A stretch of 64,000 nucleotides of DNA from Nocardioides marinus. Its GTDB lineage: Bacteria; Pseudomonadota; Alphaproteobacteria; Rhodobacterales; Rhodobacteraceae. The position numbers were made by a program, and so were the translations under genes. The DNA lies in contig JAHVJD010000010.1 of the NCBI GenBank assembly GCA_019801415.1, forward strand, positions 1 through 64,000. Direction: 5' to 3'. The notes under the pieces are model-generated. The model made no database searches. It saw only the letters and a program-made list of their open reading frames with translations, and was not told the DNA's origin. Numbering within the stretch: the stretch's first letter is position 1; each line of letters opens with the position of its first letter. Shown piece by piece: positions 21,775 through 27,590 of the stretch.

Positions 21775-22977
21775 ATGGATGCTTTCATCTGCGACGCCAC
21801 CCGCACCCCGATCGGCCGCTACGGCGGTGCGCTCAGCCAGATACGCACTGACGACCTGGCCGCCCTGCCGATTGCCGCTCTTGCAGCGCGCAACCCGGAT
21901 GTGGACTGGGGCAGACTGGACGACGTGATTCTGGGCGACGCCAATCAGGCCGGCGAAAGCAACCGCAACGTCGCACGCATGGCGGCCCTGCTGGCGGGCC
22001 TGCCCACCACGGTGCCGGGCACCACGATCAACCGTCTCTGTGCCTCGGGCATGGATGCGGTCGGCATGGCCTCGCGCGGGATCAAGGCGGGTGACTATGA
22101 CATGGCCATCGCCGGCGGCGTTGAAAGCATGTCGCGCGCGCCCTTCGTGATGCCCAAGGCCACCGCAGCCTTTACCCGTGCCAATGCGGTCTACGACACG
22201 ACCATCGGCTGGCGCTTCGTGAACAAGCGGATGCACGACATGTATGGCACCGATTCCATGCCGCAGACCGCCGACAACGTTGCCGAAGACTACGGCGTCT
22301 CCCGCGAGGATCAGGACGCCTTTGCCGCCCGCAGCCAGGCCCGTTGGGCTGCCGCGCATGAGGCTGGCATTTTCAAGGAGGAGATTACTCCGGTCACCAT
22401 TCCCCAGCGCAAGGGCAAGGACCTGGTGATCGACACCGACGAACACCCCCGCCCCGGCACCACGGCGGAGAAGCTGGCGGGGCTGAAAGGCGTCAACGGC
22501 CCGGACAAGAGCGTGACCGCAGGAAACGCCTCTGGCGTCAATGACGGCGCCGCCGCGATCCTGATGGCCAATGAGGCTGCGGCTGCGAAGAACGGCCTGA
22601 AGCCGATGGCCCGCATCGTCGGCATGGCCGCCGCAGGGGTCGAGCCGCGCATCATGGGCATTGGCCCGGTGCCCGCCACCCGCAAGGTTCTGGCCCGCAC
22701 TGGCCTGACCATCGAACAGATGGATGTGATCGAACTGAACGAGGCCTTCGCCAGCCAGGGGCTTGCCACCCTGCGCGAACTTGGCCTTCCGGACGATGCG
22801 CCCCATGTTAACCCTAATGGCGGCGCCATCGCACTTGGCCACCCGCTCGGCATGTCCGGCGCGCGGCTGGTGCTGACCGCCGCCTATCAGCTGCAGCGCA
22901 CCGGCGGGCGTTATGCGCTCTGCACCATGTGCGTCGGCGTCGGTCAGGGAACAGCCCTGATCCTGGAACGCGTGTAA
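21775..22977 (+). CDS. paaJ: acetyl-CoA acyltransferase, probable 3-oxoadipyl-CoA thiolase
   Basis: 400 aa thiolase. The first catalytic Cys is in [16 protein letters not shown] (about residue 90), the His in [20 protein letters not shown] (about 355) and the second Cys in [16 protein letters not shown] near 385. The N terminus [20 protein letters not shown] and length match PcaF/PaaJ, which cleave 3-oxoadipyl-CoA to succinyl-CoA and acetyl-CoA. The ATG at 21775 has AGGAGA upstream; the open frame extends further 5' only because the preceding GNAT gene has lost its stop frame. It lies 24 bp before paaA, supporting a role in phenylacetate breakdown. PcaF activity for protocatechuate is an alternative. 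Confidence 0.9.
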
Positions 22978-23001: not shown

Positions 23002-23979
23002 ATGTATGCTCAGATGATCAAATCCGAAGCGACCCAGGACGATCCGGAGAAGCTGGCCGCCTTTCAGGCCCGCATCGACGCGGGTGAGAAGATCGAGCCC
23101 AAGGACTGGATGCCCGAGGGCTACCGCAAGACGCTGATCCGTCAGATCGGCCAGCACGCACATTCCGAAATCGTCGGCCAGCTGCCCGAAGGCAACTGGA
23201 TCACCCGCGCGCCGACGCTGGAGCGCAAGGCGATCCTGCTGGCCAAGGTGCAGGATGAGGCAGGCCACGGGTTGTATCTCTACTGTGCCGCGGAAACGCT
23301 GGGTATCAGCCGCGACGAGATGACGGAAATGCTGCTCGACGGGCGCATGAAGTATTCCTCGATCTTCAACTATCCGACGCTGAACTGGGCCGACATCGGC
23401 GCGGTCGGCTGGCTGGTGGACGGGGCGGCGATCATGAACCAGGTGCCGTTGCAGCGGACCTCCTACGGCCCCTACTCCCGCGCCATGATCCGCGTCTGCA
23501 AGGAAGAAAGCTTTCACCAGCGCCAGGGCTACGATGTCATCCGCCGAATGGCCGAGGGCACACCGGAGCAGAAGAAGATGGCGCAGGATGCGCTGAACCG
23601 GCTGTGGTACCCGTCACTGATGATGTTCGGCCCTTCGGACAAGGACTCGGTCCATTCCGCGCAGTCGATGAAATGGAAGATCAAGATGAACACCAACGAC
23701 GAGCTGCGTCAGAAGTTCGTCGATCAGACCGTGCCGCAAGCGGAATACCTGGGGCTGACCATTCCGGACCCGGACCTGAAATGGAACGAGGAACGCGGTC
23801 ACTACGATTTCACTGACCCGGACTGGAATGAGTTCTTTGACGTGATCAAGGGCAATGGCCCGTGCAATGCCGACCGTCTCGCCGCCCGCAACAAGGCCTG
23901 GAAGGATGGCCAATGGGTGCGCGACGGCATGCTCGCACATGCCCGCAAAAAGGCCGCGCGCAAACACGCGGCCGAGTAA
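23002..23979 (+). CDS. paaA: phenylacetyl-CoA epoxidase catalytic subunit PaaA
   Basis: 325 aa ferritin-like di-iron oxygenase subunit. Iron-binding helices are visible as [16 protein letters not shown] (about 52-67), [22 protein letters not shown] (EAGH, near 91), and [13 protein letters not shown] (near 170). It converts phenylacetyl-CoA to ring-1,2-epoxyphenylacetyl-CoA with PaaB, PaaC and the reductase PaaE. ATG at 23002 follows AGGAGG. It is the first of five tightly spaced paa genes in the order A-B-C-D-E found in most bacteria. Confidence 0.96.
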
Positions 23980-24032: not shown

Positions 24033-24317
24033 ATGAAAAACGAATGGCCCCTGTGGGAAGTCTTCATCCGCGGCCAGCACGGCATGAGCCACCGCCACGT
24101 CGGCTCCCTGCACGCGCCCGACGCCGAAATGGCAATCAAGAACGCCCGCGACGTCTACACCCGCCGCAACGAAGGTGTGTCGATCTGGGTTGTCGAAGCC
24201 GCGGCGATCACCGCCTCCTCACCCAGCGACAAAGGTCCTCTTTACGAGCCGTCGGAAAGCAAGGTTTACCGTCACCCGACCTTCTTCGATATTCCTGACG
24301 AAGTGGGGGCGATGTGA
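24033..24317 (+). CDS. paaB: phenylacetyl-CoA epoxidase subunit PaaB
   Basis: 94 aa, the normal PaaB length, with WPLWEVFIRGQHGMSHRHVG near the N terminus and ALNARDVYTRR-like segment (AMIKNARDVYTRRNEGVSIWVV) in the middle. PaaB bridges PaaAC dimers in the epoxidase complex. The ATG at 24033 follows AGAGGATTAGAG. Its TGA overlaps the ATG of paaC, so the two are coupled. Confidence 0.95.
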   Translation: MKNEWPLWEVFIRGQHGMSHRHVGSLHAPDAEMAIKNARDVYTRRNEGVSIWVVEAAAITASSPSDKGPLYEPSESKVYRHPTFFDIPDEVGAM

Positions 24318-25111
24318 TGACTGCCGCCGCCGCCAAAGCTCAGCCCGCCCTCACCCAGCAAGAAGCCTTTGTGCAGTTCCTGCTGCGCATGGGAGACAAC
24401 ACACTGATCCTCGGTCACCGGGTCAGCGAATGGTGCGGGCACGCGCCGGTGCTGGAGGAAGACATCGCACTGGCCAACATCGCTCTCGACCTGATCGGCC
24501 AGACACAGATCTGGCTGGGGCTAGCAGCAGATGTGCAGGGCGAGGGGAAATCCGCAGACGACCTCGCGTTTCTGCGCGACGCTTGGGACTTCCGCAACCT
24601 GCTGCTGGTCGAGATGCCCAACGGTGACTTCGGCCAGACGCTGATGCGCCAGTTCCTGTTCGATGCCTGGCATGGGCTGATGCTGGAGCAGCTGAAAAGC
24701 TCCTCGGACGAGCGGGTGGCCGCGATTGCAGAGAAAGCTTCGAAGGAAGTTGCCTACCACTTTGAGCGGTCCGCCGAGACGGTGATTTCCCTCGGGGACG
24801 GCACCGAAGAAAGCCACAACCGCATGCAGGCGGCGCTGGATTACCTCTGGCCCTACGTCGGCGAAATGTTCCTCTCCGACGAGATCGACGCCGCGATGGA
24901 GCAGGCAGGAATCGCGCCGGACCCGACAACCTTGCGCGACGCATACGATACCCGCGTCTCCGACGTTCTGGCAGAGGCTACGCTTACCATCCCGGAGAGC
25001 CGCTTCGCCCAGAAAGGCGGCCGCACCGGCCAGATGCACACCGAGCATCTGGGCCATCTGCTGACCCAGATGCAGTGGCTGCAACGCGCCTACCCCGGCG
25101 CCAAGTGGTAA
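24317..25111 (+). CDS. paaC: phenylacetyl-CoA epoxidase structural subunit PaaC
   Basis: 264 aa ferritin-fold protein that pairs with PaaA but lacks a complete metal site in characterised homologues. Recognisable stretches are LRMGDNTLILGHRVSEWCGHAPVLEEDIALANIALDLIGQ (about 18-57) and MLEQLKSSSDERVAAIAEKASKEVAYHFERS near 125-155. The start is ATG 24317, overlapping the paaB stop. It is followed by a 123-bp gap before paaD that contains a branched hairpin element, the only sizeable gap in the paaABCDE run. Confidence 0.95.
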   Translation: MTAAAAKAQPALTQQEAFVQFLLRMGDNTLILGHRVSEWCGHAPVLEEDIALANIALDLIGQTQIWLGLAADVQGEGKSADDLAFLRDAWDFRNLLLVEMPNGDFGQTLMRQFLFDAWHGLMLEQLKSSSDERVAAIAEKASKEVAYHFERSAETVISLGDGTEESHNRMQAALDYLWPYVGEMFLSDEIDAAMEQAGIAPDPTTLRDAYDTRVSDVLAEATLTIPESRFAQKGGRTGQMHTEHLGHLLTQMQWLQRAYPGAKW

Positions 25112-25234: not shown

Positions 25235-25720
25235 ATGAGCCAACTTGCCGAAAAGCCAGCCGAGAAGCCCAGCCTGGACCAAGTCTGGGAGTGGCTGGAC
25301 GCGGTGCCGGACCCGGAGATCCCGGTGATTTCTCTTGTCGACCTTGGCGTCATCCGCGGCGTCGAGTGGCAGGACGACACGCTGGTCGTCACCGTTACAC
25401 CCACCTATTCCGGCTGCCCGGCCACCGCGGTGATCCAGATGGATATCGAAACCGCCCTCAAGGCCCGCGGCATCGAGGATATGCGTCTCAAGACCCAGAT
25501 CTCTCCCGCCTGGACCACCGATTGGTTGTCGGACAAAGGCCGCGCCAAGCTCGAGGCCTACGGCATCGCTCCGCCCGAGCCCGCGGGTGGCCCGGAAACA
25601 TGCCCGCATTGCGGCAGCCGACATGTCACCAAGGTCAGCCAGTTCGGCTCGACCCCCTGCAAGGCCCACTGGCGCTGCCAGGACTGCCTCGAACCTTTTG
25701 ATTATTTCAAGTGCATCTGA
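25235..25720 (+). CDS. paaD: phenylacetate degradation protein PaaD (Fe-S maturation type)
   Basis: 161 aa. The N-terminal MIP18/DUF59 domain (about 12-105) includes DPEIPVISLVDLGVIRGVEW and TYSGCPATAVIQMDIETAL, and the C terminus has a zinc-ribbon-like set of Cys (CPHCGSRHVTKVSQFG, then CKAHWRCQDC). PaaD is needed for epoxidase activity, probably by helping to install the iron or Fe-S centre in PaaE/PaaA. The ATG at 25235 follows GAGGATTTCCGC. A structured element precedes it. Confidence 0.94.
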   Translation: MSQLAEKPAEKPSLDQVWEWLDAVPDPEIPVISLVDLGVIRGVEWQDDTLVVTVTPTYSGCPATAVIQMDIETALKARGIEDMRLKTQISPAWTTDWLSDKGRAKLEAYGIAPPEPAGGPETCPHCGSRHVTKVSQFGSTPCKAHWRCQDCLEPFDYFKCI

Positions 25721-25730
25721 GGAGACCCTG

Positions 25731-26804
25731 ATGGCGCGCTTTCACGACCTTGAAGTCACCGATGTCCGCAAGACCATTCGCGATGCGGTGGTGGTCACCC
25801 TGAAACCCTCGCCGGAGGCGGCCACTGCGTTCGATTTCACCCAAGGCCAATATCTGACCTTCCGGCGGGACTTCGACGGCGAGGAGCTGCGCCGCAGCTA
25901 TTCCATCTGTGCCGGAAAGGACGAGGGCATCCTGCAGGTCGGCATCAAGCGCGTCGACGGCGGCGCCTTTTCGACCTGGGCCAACACCGAGCTGAAAGTC
26001 GGCGATACCCTGCAGGCGATGCCGCCGATGGGCACCTTTCACACACCGCTCGATCCGAAGGCTGAGAAACACTATCTCGGCTTCGCGGGCGGCTCCGGCA
26101 TCACACCCGTCCTCTCGCTCCTGAAGACGACGTTGGCAACAGAGCCCAAGTCCTCCTTCACGCTGGTCTACGCCAACAAGGGCGTGAACACGATCATGTT
26201 CCGCGAGGAGCTGGAGGATCTGAAGAACATCCACATGGGGCGACTGAACGTCATCCACGTGCTGGAATCCGACGCTCAGGACATTGACCTGTTCACCGGT
26301 CTCGTGACCGAGGAAAAATGCGCCCAGCTCTTTGAGCATTGGATCGACATCACGTCCGTCGACACCGCCTTCATCTGTGGCCCAGAACCGATGATGCTCG
26401 GCATCGCCGCAGCCCTGCGCACGGCCGGGCTGGAGGACAGCCAGATCAAGTTTGAACTTTTCGCCTCTGCCCAGCCGGGCCGCGCCAAGCGCAAGGCGGG
26501 CGCCGCAGAAGCCGGTACAAGCGCCAATCAGACCAAGGCGGCCATCACACTCGACGGGGCCACTCAGACCATCCAGATGGGCAAGGACGTAACGCTGCTG
26601 GACGCCGCACTGGAAAACGCCATGGACGCGCCCTACGCTTGCAAGGCGGGCGTCTGCTCCACCTGCCGCTGCAAGGTTTTGGAGGGCGAGGTGGAGATGG
26701 TCGCCAATCACGCGCTTGAGGATTACGAGGTCGAAAAAGGGTATGTGCTGAGCTGCCAGGCCTACCCGGTGACGGATACAGTGGTGGTGGACTACGACCA
26801 GTAG
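25731..26804 (+). CDS. paaE: phenylacetyl-CoA epoxidase reductase subunit PaaE
   Basis: 357 aa flavin/Fe-S reductase. FAD-binding RxYS motif in EELRRSYSICAGKDEG (about 45-60), NAD-binding GFAGGSGITPVLSLL (about 116-130), CGPEPMM near 215, and a C-terminal plant-type 2Fe-2S ferredoxin domain with CKAGVCSTCRCKVLEG and the last Cys in VLSCQAYP. It passes electrons from NADPH to PaaA. The ATG at 25731 follows GAGGAGACCCTG, 10 bp after paaD. Confidence 0.96.
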   Translation: MARFHDLEVTDVRKTIRDAVVVTLKPSPEAATAFDFTQGQYLTFRRDFDGEELRRSYSICAGKDEGILQVGIKRVDGGAFSTWANTELKVGDTLQAMPPMGTFHTPLDPKAEKHYLGFAGGSGITPVLSLLKTTLATEPKSSFTLVYANKGVNTIMFREELEDLKNIHMGRLNVIHVLESDAQDIDLFTGLVTEEKCAQLFEHWIDITSVDTAFICGPEPMMLGIAAALRTAGLEDSQIKFELFASAQPGRAKRKAGAAEAGTSANQTKAAITLDGATQTIQMGKDVTLLDAALENAMDAPYACKAGVCSTCRCKVLEGEVEMVANHALEDYEVEKGYVLSCQAYPVTDTVVVDYDQ

Positions 26805-26828
26805 CAACCGTTTTGGGGAGGATCAGCC

Positions 26829-27590
26829 GTGGCTGAAGATATGAGCATCGAAACCTACCTGGCCCGCGGGGGCGTGTTGACCACCCCGGCCAACGTCCCG
26901 CCCCGCTACCGGGCAGAGCTGCTGAAGCTGATGGCAACCTTCGTCGACAGCGAGCTGGCCGGTGCCGCAGGTTTTGCTGATATTATCAACCAGGGTCCCG
27001 GCATCCAGGCCCGCATCGCCGCGGCCCGTATCGTGCTGGAAAAAACCGCGCATGCGGACCAGGTGTTGCGCCTGATGGGGGAATTCGGTGCGGACACGGC
27101 CCGCTATGCCGATCACCATCCCTGGACCGCCCGGCTCGCGCGCGATGCCGACATCGGACAGAGCCGAAGCCAGCACGACATGCGACTGGCGGTCTTCAAC
27201 TACCCGCTGCAAGGCTGGGCCGATGCAGTTGTGATGAACGTGTTGATGGGCCGCGCCGTGACCCTCCAGCTGGAGGAGCTGAGCCATGTCTCCTATCAGC
27301 CCTTGGCCGAGGCCTTCCGCACGATCCTGCCAGTGGAGACCCGCCACGCGGAACTGGCCGAAGAAGGGCTGATGACACTTGTGGAATCAACCGGAACCGA
27401 GCCTCTGCAAGACTTGGTTGACTATTGGTGGCCAAGGGTCGCGGCCAGCTTCGGGCAGGAAGCCTCGGACAAGTTCGAAGGGCTGAAAGCGATGGGACTG
27501 CGCCGCACGCCAAACGCCGAGCTGAAAGCCCGCTGGCAGCAAGAGGCAACTTCCATCCTGACGAAGGCCGGGCTGGCGCCAGGGAGCTGA
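26829..27590 (+). CDS. PaaA/PaaC-like ferritin-fold protein of unknown role
   Basis: 253 aa encoded 24 bp after paaE. It follows the phenylacetic acid catabolic protein fold (PF05138): FVDSELAGAAGFADII resembles the first metal helix of PaaA, RIVLEKTAHADQVLRLMGEFG occupies the place of the EAGH helix but has Lys where the EXXH Glu should be, and VETRHAELAEEGLM matches the ExxH of the fourth helix. It is about 70 aa shorter than PaaA. GTG at 26829 has GGGGAGG at good spacing. It may be an extra or regulatory epoxidase subunit, or a diverged oxygenase; function unknown. Confidence 0.8.
   Translation: MAEDMSIETYLARGGVLTTPANVPPRYRAELLKLMATFVDSELAGAAGFADIINQGPGIQARIAAARIVLEKTAHADQVLRLMGEFGADTARYADHHPWTARLARDADIGQSRSQHDMRLAVFNYPLQGWADAVVMNVLMGRAVTLQLEELSHVSYQPLAEAFRTILPVETRHAELAEEGLMTLVESTGTEPLQDLVDYWWPRVAASFGQEASDKFEGLKAMGLRRTPNAELKARWQQEATSILTKAGLAPGS

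Follow-up and report, generated by a model that had tools for sequence, protein, structure and literature searches.

The closest described relatives of the gene analyzed here are PaaA, the catalytic diiron subunit of the phenylacetyl-CoA epoxidase, its paralogue PaaC, and BoxB, the benzoyl-CoA 2,3-epoxidase. As given in two reports (PMC4498308, PMC7497051), the diiron center of PaaA is held by E42, E72, H75, D126, E155 and H158, and a lysine bridge is formed by K68, E49, E72 and D126. The second of these also presents PaaC as a PaaA homologue that carries no iron and belongs to the same complex, i.e. a precedent for a metal-free member of the fold (PMC7497051), and the first describes BoxB as a longer diiron enzyme for which no structural subunit is needed (PMC4498308). 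The architecture shared by PaaA and PaaC has been used as a pathway marker in a survey (PMC13186573). Here we characterize a further PaaA/PaaC-fold protein, referred to as X, whose gene follows paaE.

Locus and gene order

The window, i.e. the whole stretch of 64,000 nucleotides that was analyzed (C10:1-64000 of a 3.89-Mb genome), harbors a co-directional run of genes that reads thiolase-paaA-paaB-paaC-paaD-paaE and is followed by X. The relevant features are:

21775..22977, + strand: thiolase (pcaF/paaJ-like), first of the co-directional run
23002..23979, + strand: paaA, catalytic diiron subunit (TIGR02156, 526.7 bits, over cut-off)
24033..24317, + strand: paaB (PF06243, 144.1 bits)
24314..25111, + strand: paaC (TIGR02158, 296.3 bits, over cut-off)
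25235..25720, + strand: paaD (TIGR02159, 181.6 bits, over cut-off)
25725..26804, + strand: paaE, reductase (TIGR02160, 422.8 bits, over cut-off)
26815..26822, + strand: ribosome-binding-site-like stretch GGGGAGGA ahead of the GTG start of X (sequence reading)
26829..27590, + strand: gene X, PaaA/PaaC-fold protein of 253 aa (ORF, PF05138, AlphaFold model, solved-fold comparison)

X begins with a GTG codon 24 bp behind the paaE stop. Its sole Pfam match is PF05138 (E 2.6e-25, 89.5 bits, above the gathering cut-off of 28.5), and the genome to which the window belongs yields exactly three PF05138 matches, namely PaaA, PaaC and X. The ORF and the family match bear out the earlier note on this DNA, which had read a ferritin-fold gene of the PaaA/PaaC type after paaE, and the motifs that it pointed to (LEKTAH, with Lys at the Glu of EXXH, ETRH, and an N-terminal Glu in DSEL) are all present as claimed. 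An identical, thiolase-first gene order is annotated in Paracoccus denitrificans PD1222, where X is PDEN_RS23920. The paaK gene of the window genome lies on a separate contig (G000:C11:16271-17527), away from the paaABCDE-X operon on C10.

Fold and phylogeny

The AlphaFold model of X (46 sequences) has a mean pLDDT of 89.7, and the blocks of the lid average 65-88. When this model was compared with solved folds, ranking by Z and also using Foldseek, the top entry was SSO1313 (Z 26.3), followed by PaaA (26.0), PaaC (22.9) and BoxB (21.7). The fold is that of the family, and the scores against the models of its described members are low: X reaches 59.4 bits against the PaaA equivalog TIGR02156 (cut-off 280), 40.8 bits against the PaaC equivalog TIGR02158 (cut-off 133.35) and 19.5 bits against TIGR03225 for BoxB (cut-off 499). 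A tree of 65 rows places X and a second group of relatives (see below) together in a clade of their own (100/100); PaaA, PaaC and BoxB fall outside it, as do two more groups, termed Y and Z. The separation of this clade from PaaC is likewise 100/100, i.e. X does not group with PaaC; the program warned of long branches meeting elsewhere in this tree (Y with BoxB, PaaC with PaaA).

Distribution and position after paaE

X was found almost only in Alphaproteobacteria. In the family sample of 198 genomes, own genome included, PaaA scored over its cut-off in 90 and X (E 1e-33 or better) appeared in 38, all of them among the 90 with PaaA. Across the phylum sample of 398 genomes, X (E 1e-100 or better) occurs only in ten Alphaproteobacteria, again counting the own genome, and the best match outside that class reaches 3e-17, at loci reading as PaaA. 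A scan of species genomes, with 80 kept of 118 relatives, retrieved mostly Roseobacteraceae, as well as Rhizobium, Marinicaulis and a Rhodospirillaceae MAG; among the 40 plasmid records listed of 120 matches, X-like rows come from Ruegeria, Shinella, Mesorhizobium, Rhizobium, Phyllobacterium, Paracoccus and Bartonella. The objection that had been anticipated for X, i.e. no conservation beyond close relatives, falls away, for the gene is conserved far beyond them. The name given to X in the plasmid annotation is 'Phenylacetic acid catabolic protein' in 24 of the 40 records listed (of 120), and paaA_2 once. One plasmid (L271, NZ_CP084754.1) with the full rhizobial-type paaABCDE-X-paaZ order is named as that of Roseateles sp. 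XES5, a betaproteobacterium, and marked UNVERIFIED_ORG, which reflects either a misnamed organism or a transfer.

The position of the gene is very regular. The gene preceding X is paaE in 122 of 127 loci, a count in which the own locus stands three times and G186 twice, and which may include a genome once under its name and again without one; by distinct sequence the ratio is 112/117. In most of the loci where paaE precedes X, 10-50 bp separate the aligned ends of the two genes. Where paaZ follows, the order is paaE-X-paaZ (e.g. L227, L230, L231, L233-L235 and P. denitrificans PD1222), and throughout the paaE-linked loci X is either internal to the series of catabolic genes or the last of them. 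X stands directly behind paaABCDE in most of the hosts examined, an arrangement that suggests co-transcription. A role as replacement of PaaC was considered and discarded, because those paaE-linked operons that have sufficient flanking sequence contain PaaC next to X.

Metal-site residues and lid

The positions that correspond to the active site of PaaA, together with the lid, are located in the window as follows:

26952..26954, + strand: Glu42 codon, PaaA E42 ligand position (alignment)
27039..27053, + strand: codons E71-K72-T73-A74-H75, first EXXH motif with Lys for Glu72 (alignment)
27105..27185, + strand: residues 93-119, X-specific lid insertion (alignment)
27249..27251, + strand: Gly141 codon, PaaA Asp126 ligand position (alignment)
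27336..27347, + strand: codons E170-T-R-H173, second EXXH motif (alignment)

Residue counts refer to 117 distinct X sequences, 112 of them paaE-linked and 5 from the second group; 143 PaaA and 146 PaaC sequences were gathered as controls. The matching of X positions to those of PaaA rests on the ungapped spacing of 30 residues between E42 and K72, as between E42 and E72 in PaaA. A profile-profile alignment was not relied on, as it shifted the first EXXH stretch out of place and opened a gap at D126; neither in it nor in the spacing-based alignment does X have an acid at the D126 position.

Two of the six PaaA ligands are replaced in every sequence: position 72 is Lys in 117/117 and position 141, equivalent to D126, is Gly, Ser or Ala in 117/117. 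A third, position 75, is unconserved, with Asn in 64, His in 41 and Ser in 12 of the 117; the 76 sequences with Asn or Ser are all among the 112 paaE-linked ones, and X of the window keeps His. E42 is retained in 102 of 117 (97 of 112 paaE-linked sequences, 15 having lost it, and 5 of 5 in the second group), and E71, K72, E170 (E155 in PaaA) and H173 (H158) are invariant in all 117. The lysine bridge is not found in X either, its positions reading I68, F49, K72 and G141: K68 of PaaA is replaced by Ile in 115 sequences, Val in 1 and Met in 1, and E49 by Phe in all 117. In the PaaA control, E42, K68, E72 and H75 are kept in 141/141 rows with a letter there, and D126, E155 and H158 in 142/142 such rows (143 sequences).

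With E72 and D126 gone and H75 variable, neither iron site has its full ligand set: site 2 is without D126, site 1 without E72 and mostly without H75, and E170 and H173 are alone invariant among the six. Judged from these residues, the diiron center appears dismantled, two ligands being lost outright and a third in most members, and a diiron center in X is unlikely. Nor do the sequences support a mononuclear one, as had been suggested by the earlier note: family-wide, neither iron retains at least three of its known ligand positions. Mononuclear iron was dropped as the leading reading since, besides the change of E72 to Lys, two more ligands are lost or variable, the D126 ligand being absent in 117/117 and H75 varying. 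It should be noted that 37 of the 117 sequences, that of the window included, keep E42, H75, E170 and H173 around K72. The lid (residues 93-119) is longer than that of PaaA and carries invariant Y93, W99, R102, R105, D117 and R119, with W99, R102, R105 and R119 in 117/117.

Selection, gain and loss

X is under purifying selection, at a rate close to that of PaaC. Against four near relatives (L107, L034, L036 and L044), dN/dS is 0.10-0.12 for X, 0.11-0.17 for PaaC and 0.05-0.07 for PaaA; for more distant pairs (L089, L064 and L097) the values are 0.12, 0.15 and 0.25 for X, and 0.15, 0.12 and 0.28 for PaaC. The word degenerate, under which the gene had been introduced, is thus misleading, and a pseudogene or a sequencing artefact is excluded by these ratios together with the residues conserved in 117/117. 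An apparent in-frame TGA in the orthologue of G010 turned out to be an ordinary stop of a full-length ORF. X of Phaeobacter italicus (L089:7001-7747) has diverged from X of the window with pN 0.22, compared with 0.036 for its PaaA, a pattern from which the other near relatives differ; replacement or fast evolution in one lineage is possible.

A tree of 92 paaA-C-E operons, obtained with a quick method and midpoint-rooted, contains 52 operons with X and 40 without. The 12 outermost operons are without X, and among the remaining 80 the early branches have it (Rhodospirillaceae, Marinicaulis and kin, Rhizobium and kin). The presence of X takes 14 changes on this tree, at least 7 of them forced by supported branches, compared with a mean of 30 for shuffled labels. 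We take X to have been present early in one paa lineage and to have been lost many times since, the tree alone being unable to separate gain from loss, and the scattered absence is read as a sign that X is dispensable.

X in genomes where PaaABC was not found

On the plasmids of Bartonella sp. HY761, HY038 and HY328, the PF05138 search returned exactly two matches each, both X-like (Xa and Xb), and no PaaA or PaaC; the same search on the P. denitrificans plasmid, taken as control, recovered PaaC, PaaA and X. In HY761 and HY328, the two that were read, Xa and Xb keep E71-K72, E170 and H173; their mutual identity is 48% in HY761. In HY761 and HY038 the two genes form a tandem that follows a PaaX-family regulator; in HY328 they do not follow one and are about 21 kb apart. 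Between HY761 and HY038, dN/dS is 0.19 for Xa and 0.16 for Xb. In two genomes of one genus, each 99% complete, PF05138 was matched only twice per genome, and weakly (best E 1.5e-10 and 3.7e-10); these genomes are probably Bartonella HY038 and HY328, which would then be without PaaA and PaaC genome-wide. As Bartonella is listed among the genera with phenylacetate-CoA ligase (PMC13186573), parts of the phenylacetate pathway may be there in the X-bearing strains. The loci with Xa and Xb (L246, L248, L249 and L259) belong to Bartonella of bat faeces.

The second group consists of an X relative that is not beside paaE in five alphaproteobacterial genomes (G380, G276, G284, G319 and G565, with loci L145, L142, L143, L144 and L146, respectively). 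These are drafts, 90-96% complete, with 2-5% contamination and 120-350 contigs. Canonical PaaA or PaaC was not found in any of the five, no PF05138 match exceeding 97.4 bits (328 for PaaA and 346 for PaaC of the window), and a profile search found PaaB in none of them. X heads an operon, at the place that paaABCDE would hold. In G380 this operon comprises X, PaaF-like (343 bits, cut-off 371), PaaG, PaaH (3 bits under its cut-off), PaaI, thiolase, PaaK and FAD monooxygenase genes, with PaaG, PaaI, thiolase and PaaK over cut-off, and a flavodoxin gene is divergent from it. By similarity to the G380 genes, flavodoxin, X, PaaG-, PaaI- and PaaK-like genes are present in all five genomes, and PaaF, PaaH, thiolase and FAD monooxygenase genes in some of the operons. 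The X proteins of this group keep E42, K72, H75, E170 and H173. These operons may encode a so far undescribed way of oxidizing phenylacetyl-CoA.

Each of the five genomes encodes two further divergent PF05138 proteins, Y and Z, with both EXXH motifs, at the following positions:

L175:2100-2972, L169:1925-2821, L173:6925-7746, L167:8871-9773 and L171:9143-9976: Y genes
L174:7337-8059, L172:8691-9416, and one in L166: Z genes

Y is present in 5/5 genomes, in 4/5 on the contig of X, and has Thr at the D126 position despite both EXXH motifs. A small ORF overlaps or follows it in all five; the one scanned has no Pfam match. As Y accompanies it throughout, X could be a partner subunit there too. Z has a short-chain dehydrogenase gene as neighbor in G284 (L174) and G319 (L172), and a ferredoxin-type reductase with Fer2, FAD and NAD domains in G284 (L174, by Pfam) and, read by eye, in G319; in L166, the genes near Z code for a MarR regulator, an acyl-CoA ligase and a double-cupin protein. 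Z is another diiron-type PF05138 group and may serve a gentisate-type route as an aryl-CoA hydroxylase. Two further genomes of the G565 family are without X, and Z is their sole PF05138 protein over cut-off; the order of G380 holds that genome and one that is 68% complete, the latter without match.

What X may do

Our preferred reading, to which we assign a rough probability of 0.4, is that X serves the phenylacetate branch as an accessory aryl-CoA protein, has no diiron center and is not an obligatory subunit of PaaABCE. This fits most facts: an obligatory subunit of PaaABCE would be expected to disappear along with PaaABC, and an oxygenase with a diiron center to retain the ligands, whereas X outlives PaaABC and has not retained them. 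A pocket for the CoA thioester would be kept under the Arg/Trp-rich lid, CoA binding being suggested by the fold and the conserved residues. X would there bind phenylacetyl-CoA or the unstable epoxide/oxepin product, without O2 activation, and may stabilize the intermediate, hand it over or process it by acid-base chemistry through the invariant Lys72-Glu170-His173 core; both this substrate and the part played by Lys72 are proposals. Its role would be helpful, not essential, and hence its absence scattered. What speaks against an accessory protein is the tight link to paaE, which suits a true subunit of the complex equally well, a complex being a natural guess.

Nearly as likely is such a sixth, non-catalytic subunit of the epoxidase, metal-free like PaaC, which would dock on PaaA (or on Y) and shape assembly, substrate entry or electron transfer from PaaE. 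The very regular position after paaE, the occurrence of X only with PaaA in the family sample (38/38), the precedent of PaaC (PMC7497051) and an evolutionary rate like that of PaaC all agree with it, as does the fact that Y accompanies X in 5/5 second-group genomes and that the two relatives without X have Z alone over cut-off. It is harder to reconcile with the Bartonella plasmids, where X occurs without any other PF05138 protein, and with the two matching genomes that have only two PF05138 matches each, or with the 40 of 92 compared paa operons that do without X. We also tested 645 variable columns of PaaA, PaaC and PaaE against the presence of X over 7 independent pairs. In the best column 3.8 pairs agreed with the presence of X and 0.2 disagreed; the other tail reached 0.4 agreeing and 3.3 disagreeing pairs, and 10 of the 12 top columns are in PaaE. 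The lack of any PaaA, PaaC or PaaE column that tracks X beyond noise among these 645 columns and 7 pairs counts against a subunit, in a test that, as regards contact of X with these proteins, helps neither side. Of the earlier proposal of an extra paa subunit there stands an extra, widely conserved PaaA-fold protein of the paa operon; that X is a subunit of PaaABCE is possible but does not account for everything observed.

The other readings carry less weight. That X is an oxygenase with an unusual metal site, e.g. a dinuclear one with Glu170 and a carbamylated Lys72 as its bridges, or one iron on Glu42, Glu170 and His173, we regard as unlikely: the 37/117 sequences with E42, H75, E170 and H173 around K72 would suit it, and so would the five genomes where X heads a paaG/paaI/paaK-type operon (in G380 also F, H and J) in the place of paaABCDE and divergent from a flavodoxin gene, but the D126 position is acid-free in 117/117, H75 is Asn or Ser in 76/117, E42 is lost in 15/112 paaE-linked sequences, and Y, in which both EXXH motifs are present, is encoded in the second-group genomes as well. 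PaaX-type regulators are responsive to phenylacetyl-CoA, and the X pair follows a PaaX-family regulator gene in 2/3 Bartonella records examined, which would be consistent with an aryl-CoA-binding sensor or regulator that reports the substrate level and is neither enzyme nor subunit. Such a function is still less probable, since PF05138 is the only Pfam match of X, so that no DNA-binding or signalling domain is seen, and the gene sits inside or at the end of a catabolic run in paaE-linked loci. Finally, the loss of diiron ligands and the scattered absence could recall a decaying, functionless paaA duplicate; a dN/dS of about 0.1, the conservation of K72, E71, E170, H173 and the lid residues in 117/117, and a well-supported X clade in effect refute it.

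Going beyond the accessory protein preferred here, X might represent a functional class that is new to the ferritin-like fold of aryl-CoA oxygenases: an aryl-CoA enzyme that is metal-independent (or has a carbamyl-lysine-metal site), is built around a Lys-Glu-His core and acts with or without PaaABCE. Where PaaABCE is not present, it would take the place of paaABCDE in a paaFGHIJK-type operon and, with flavodoxin and Y, make up an undescribed system for phenylacetyl-CoA oxidation. We put this forward as a rather doubtful proposal.

Novelty and meaning

Neither the fold nor the family of X is new, and the annotation of the gene carries the family name, 'Phenylacetic acid catabolic protein'; behind this name X forms an undescribed subfamily. 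No description of it was found in the literature searched, which is no proof that none is in print. A conserved extra component of a well-studied pathway is thus masked by a family name in public plasmid records, and surveys in which the PaaA_PaaC architecture serves as a marker may mistake X for PaaA or PaaC. Should X assist the epoxidase as an accessory, PaaABC(D)E as given in textbooks would lack a component for many Alphaproteobacteria; should X be an enzyme, a metal site rebuilt around a lysine within a ferritin fold would mean new chemistry. The operons without PaaABC make its role directly testable.

Comparison with known proteins

Of the described proteins, PaaA (PDB 3PVR/3PW8 series) shares with X the operon and the fold (Z about 26, 2.1-2.4 A over 235-238 residues, 20-21% identity), as well as the positions E42 (mostly), E155 (E170 in X) and H158 (H173). 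Unlike PaaA, X has E72 changed to Lys, D126 to Gly, Ser or Ala, K68 to Ile and E49 to Phe, so that the lysine bridge is lost, and mostly Asn or Ser for H75; its lid is longer, the C-terminal extension of PaaA is missing, and it forms a separate clade. PaaC (PDB 1OTK, 3PVT) resembles X as a diiron-less paralogue in the same operon with a similar fold and evolutionary rate, but its ligands have eroded in a different manner: E72 (Leu), H75 (Gln) and E155 (Val or Ala) are mostly lost and D126 is kept in 127/146, whereas X keeps the E155 position and has K72. With BoxB, X shares the superfamily fold. The top solved fold by Z, tied with PaaA, is that of SSO1313 from Sulfolobus solfataricus (PDB 4MUD), entitled 'ring oxydation complex/ phenylacetic acid degradation-like protein', whose chain of 220 residues is similar in length to X at 20-21% identity; SSO1313 is archaeal and, in contrast to X, keeps LVDGAG at the D126 position together with an EESH motif.
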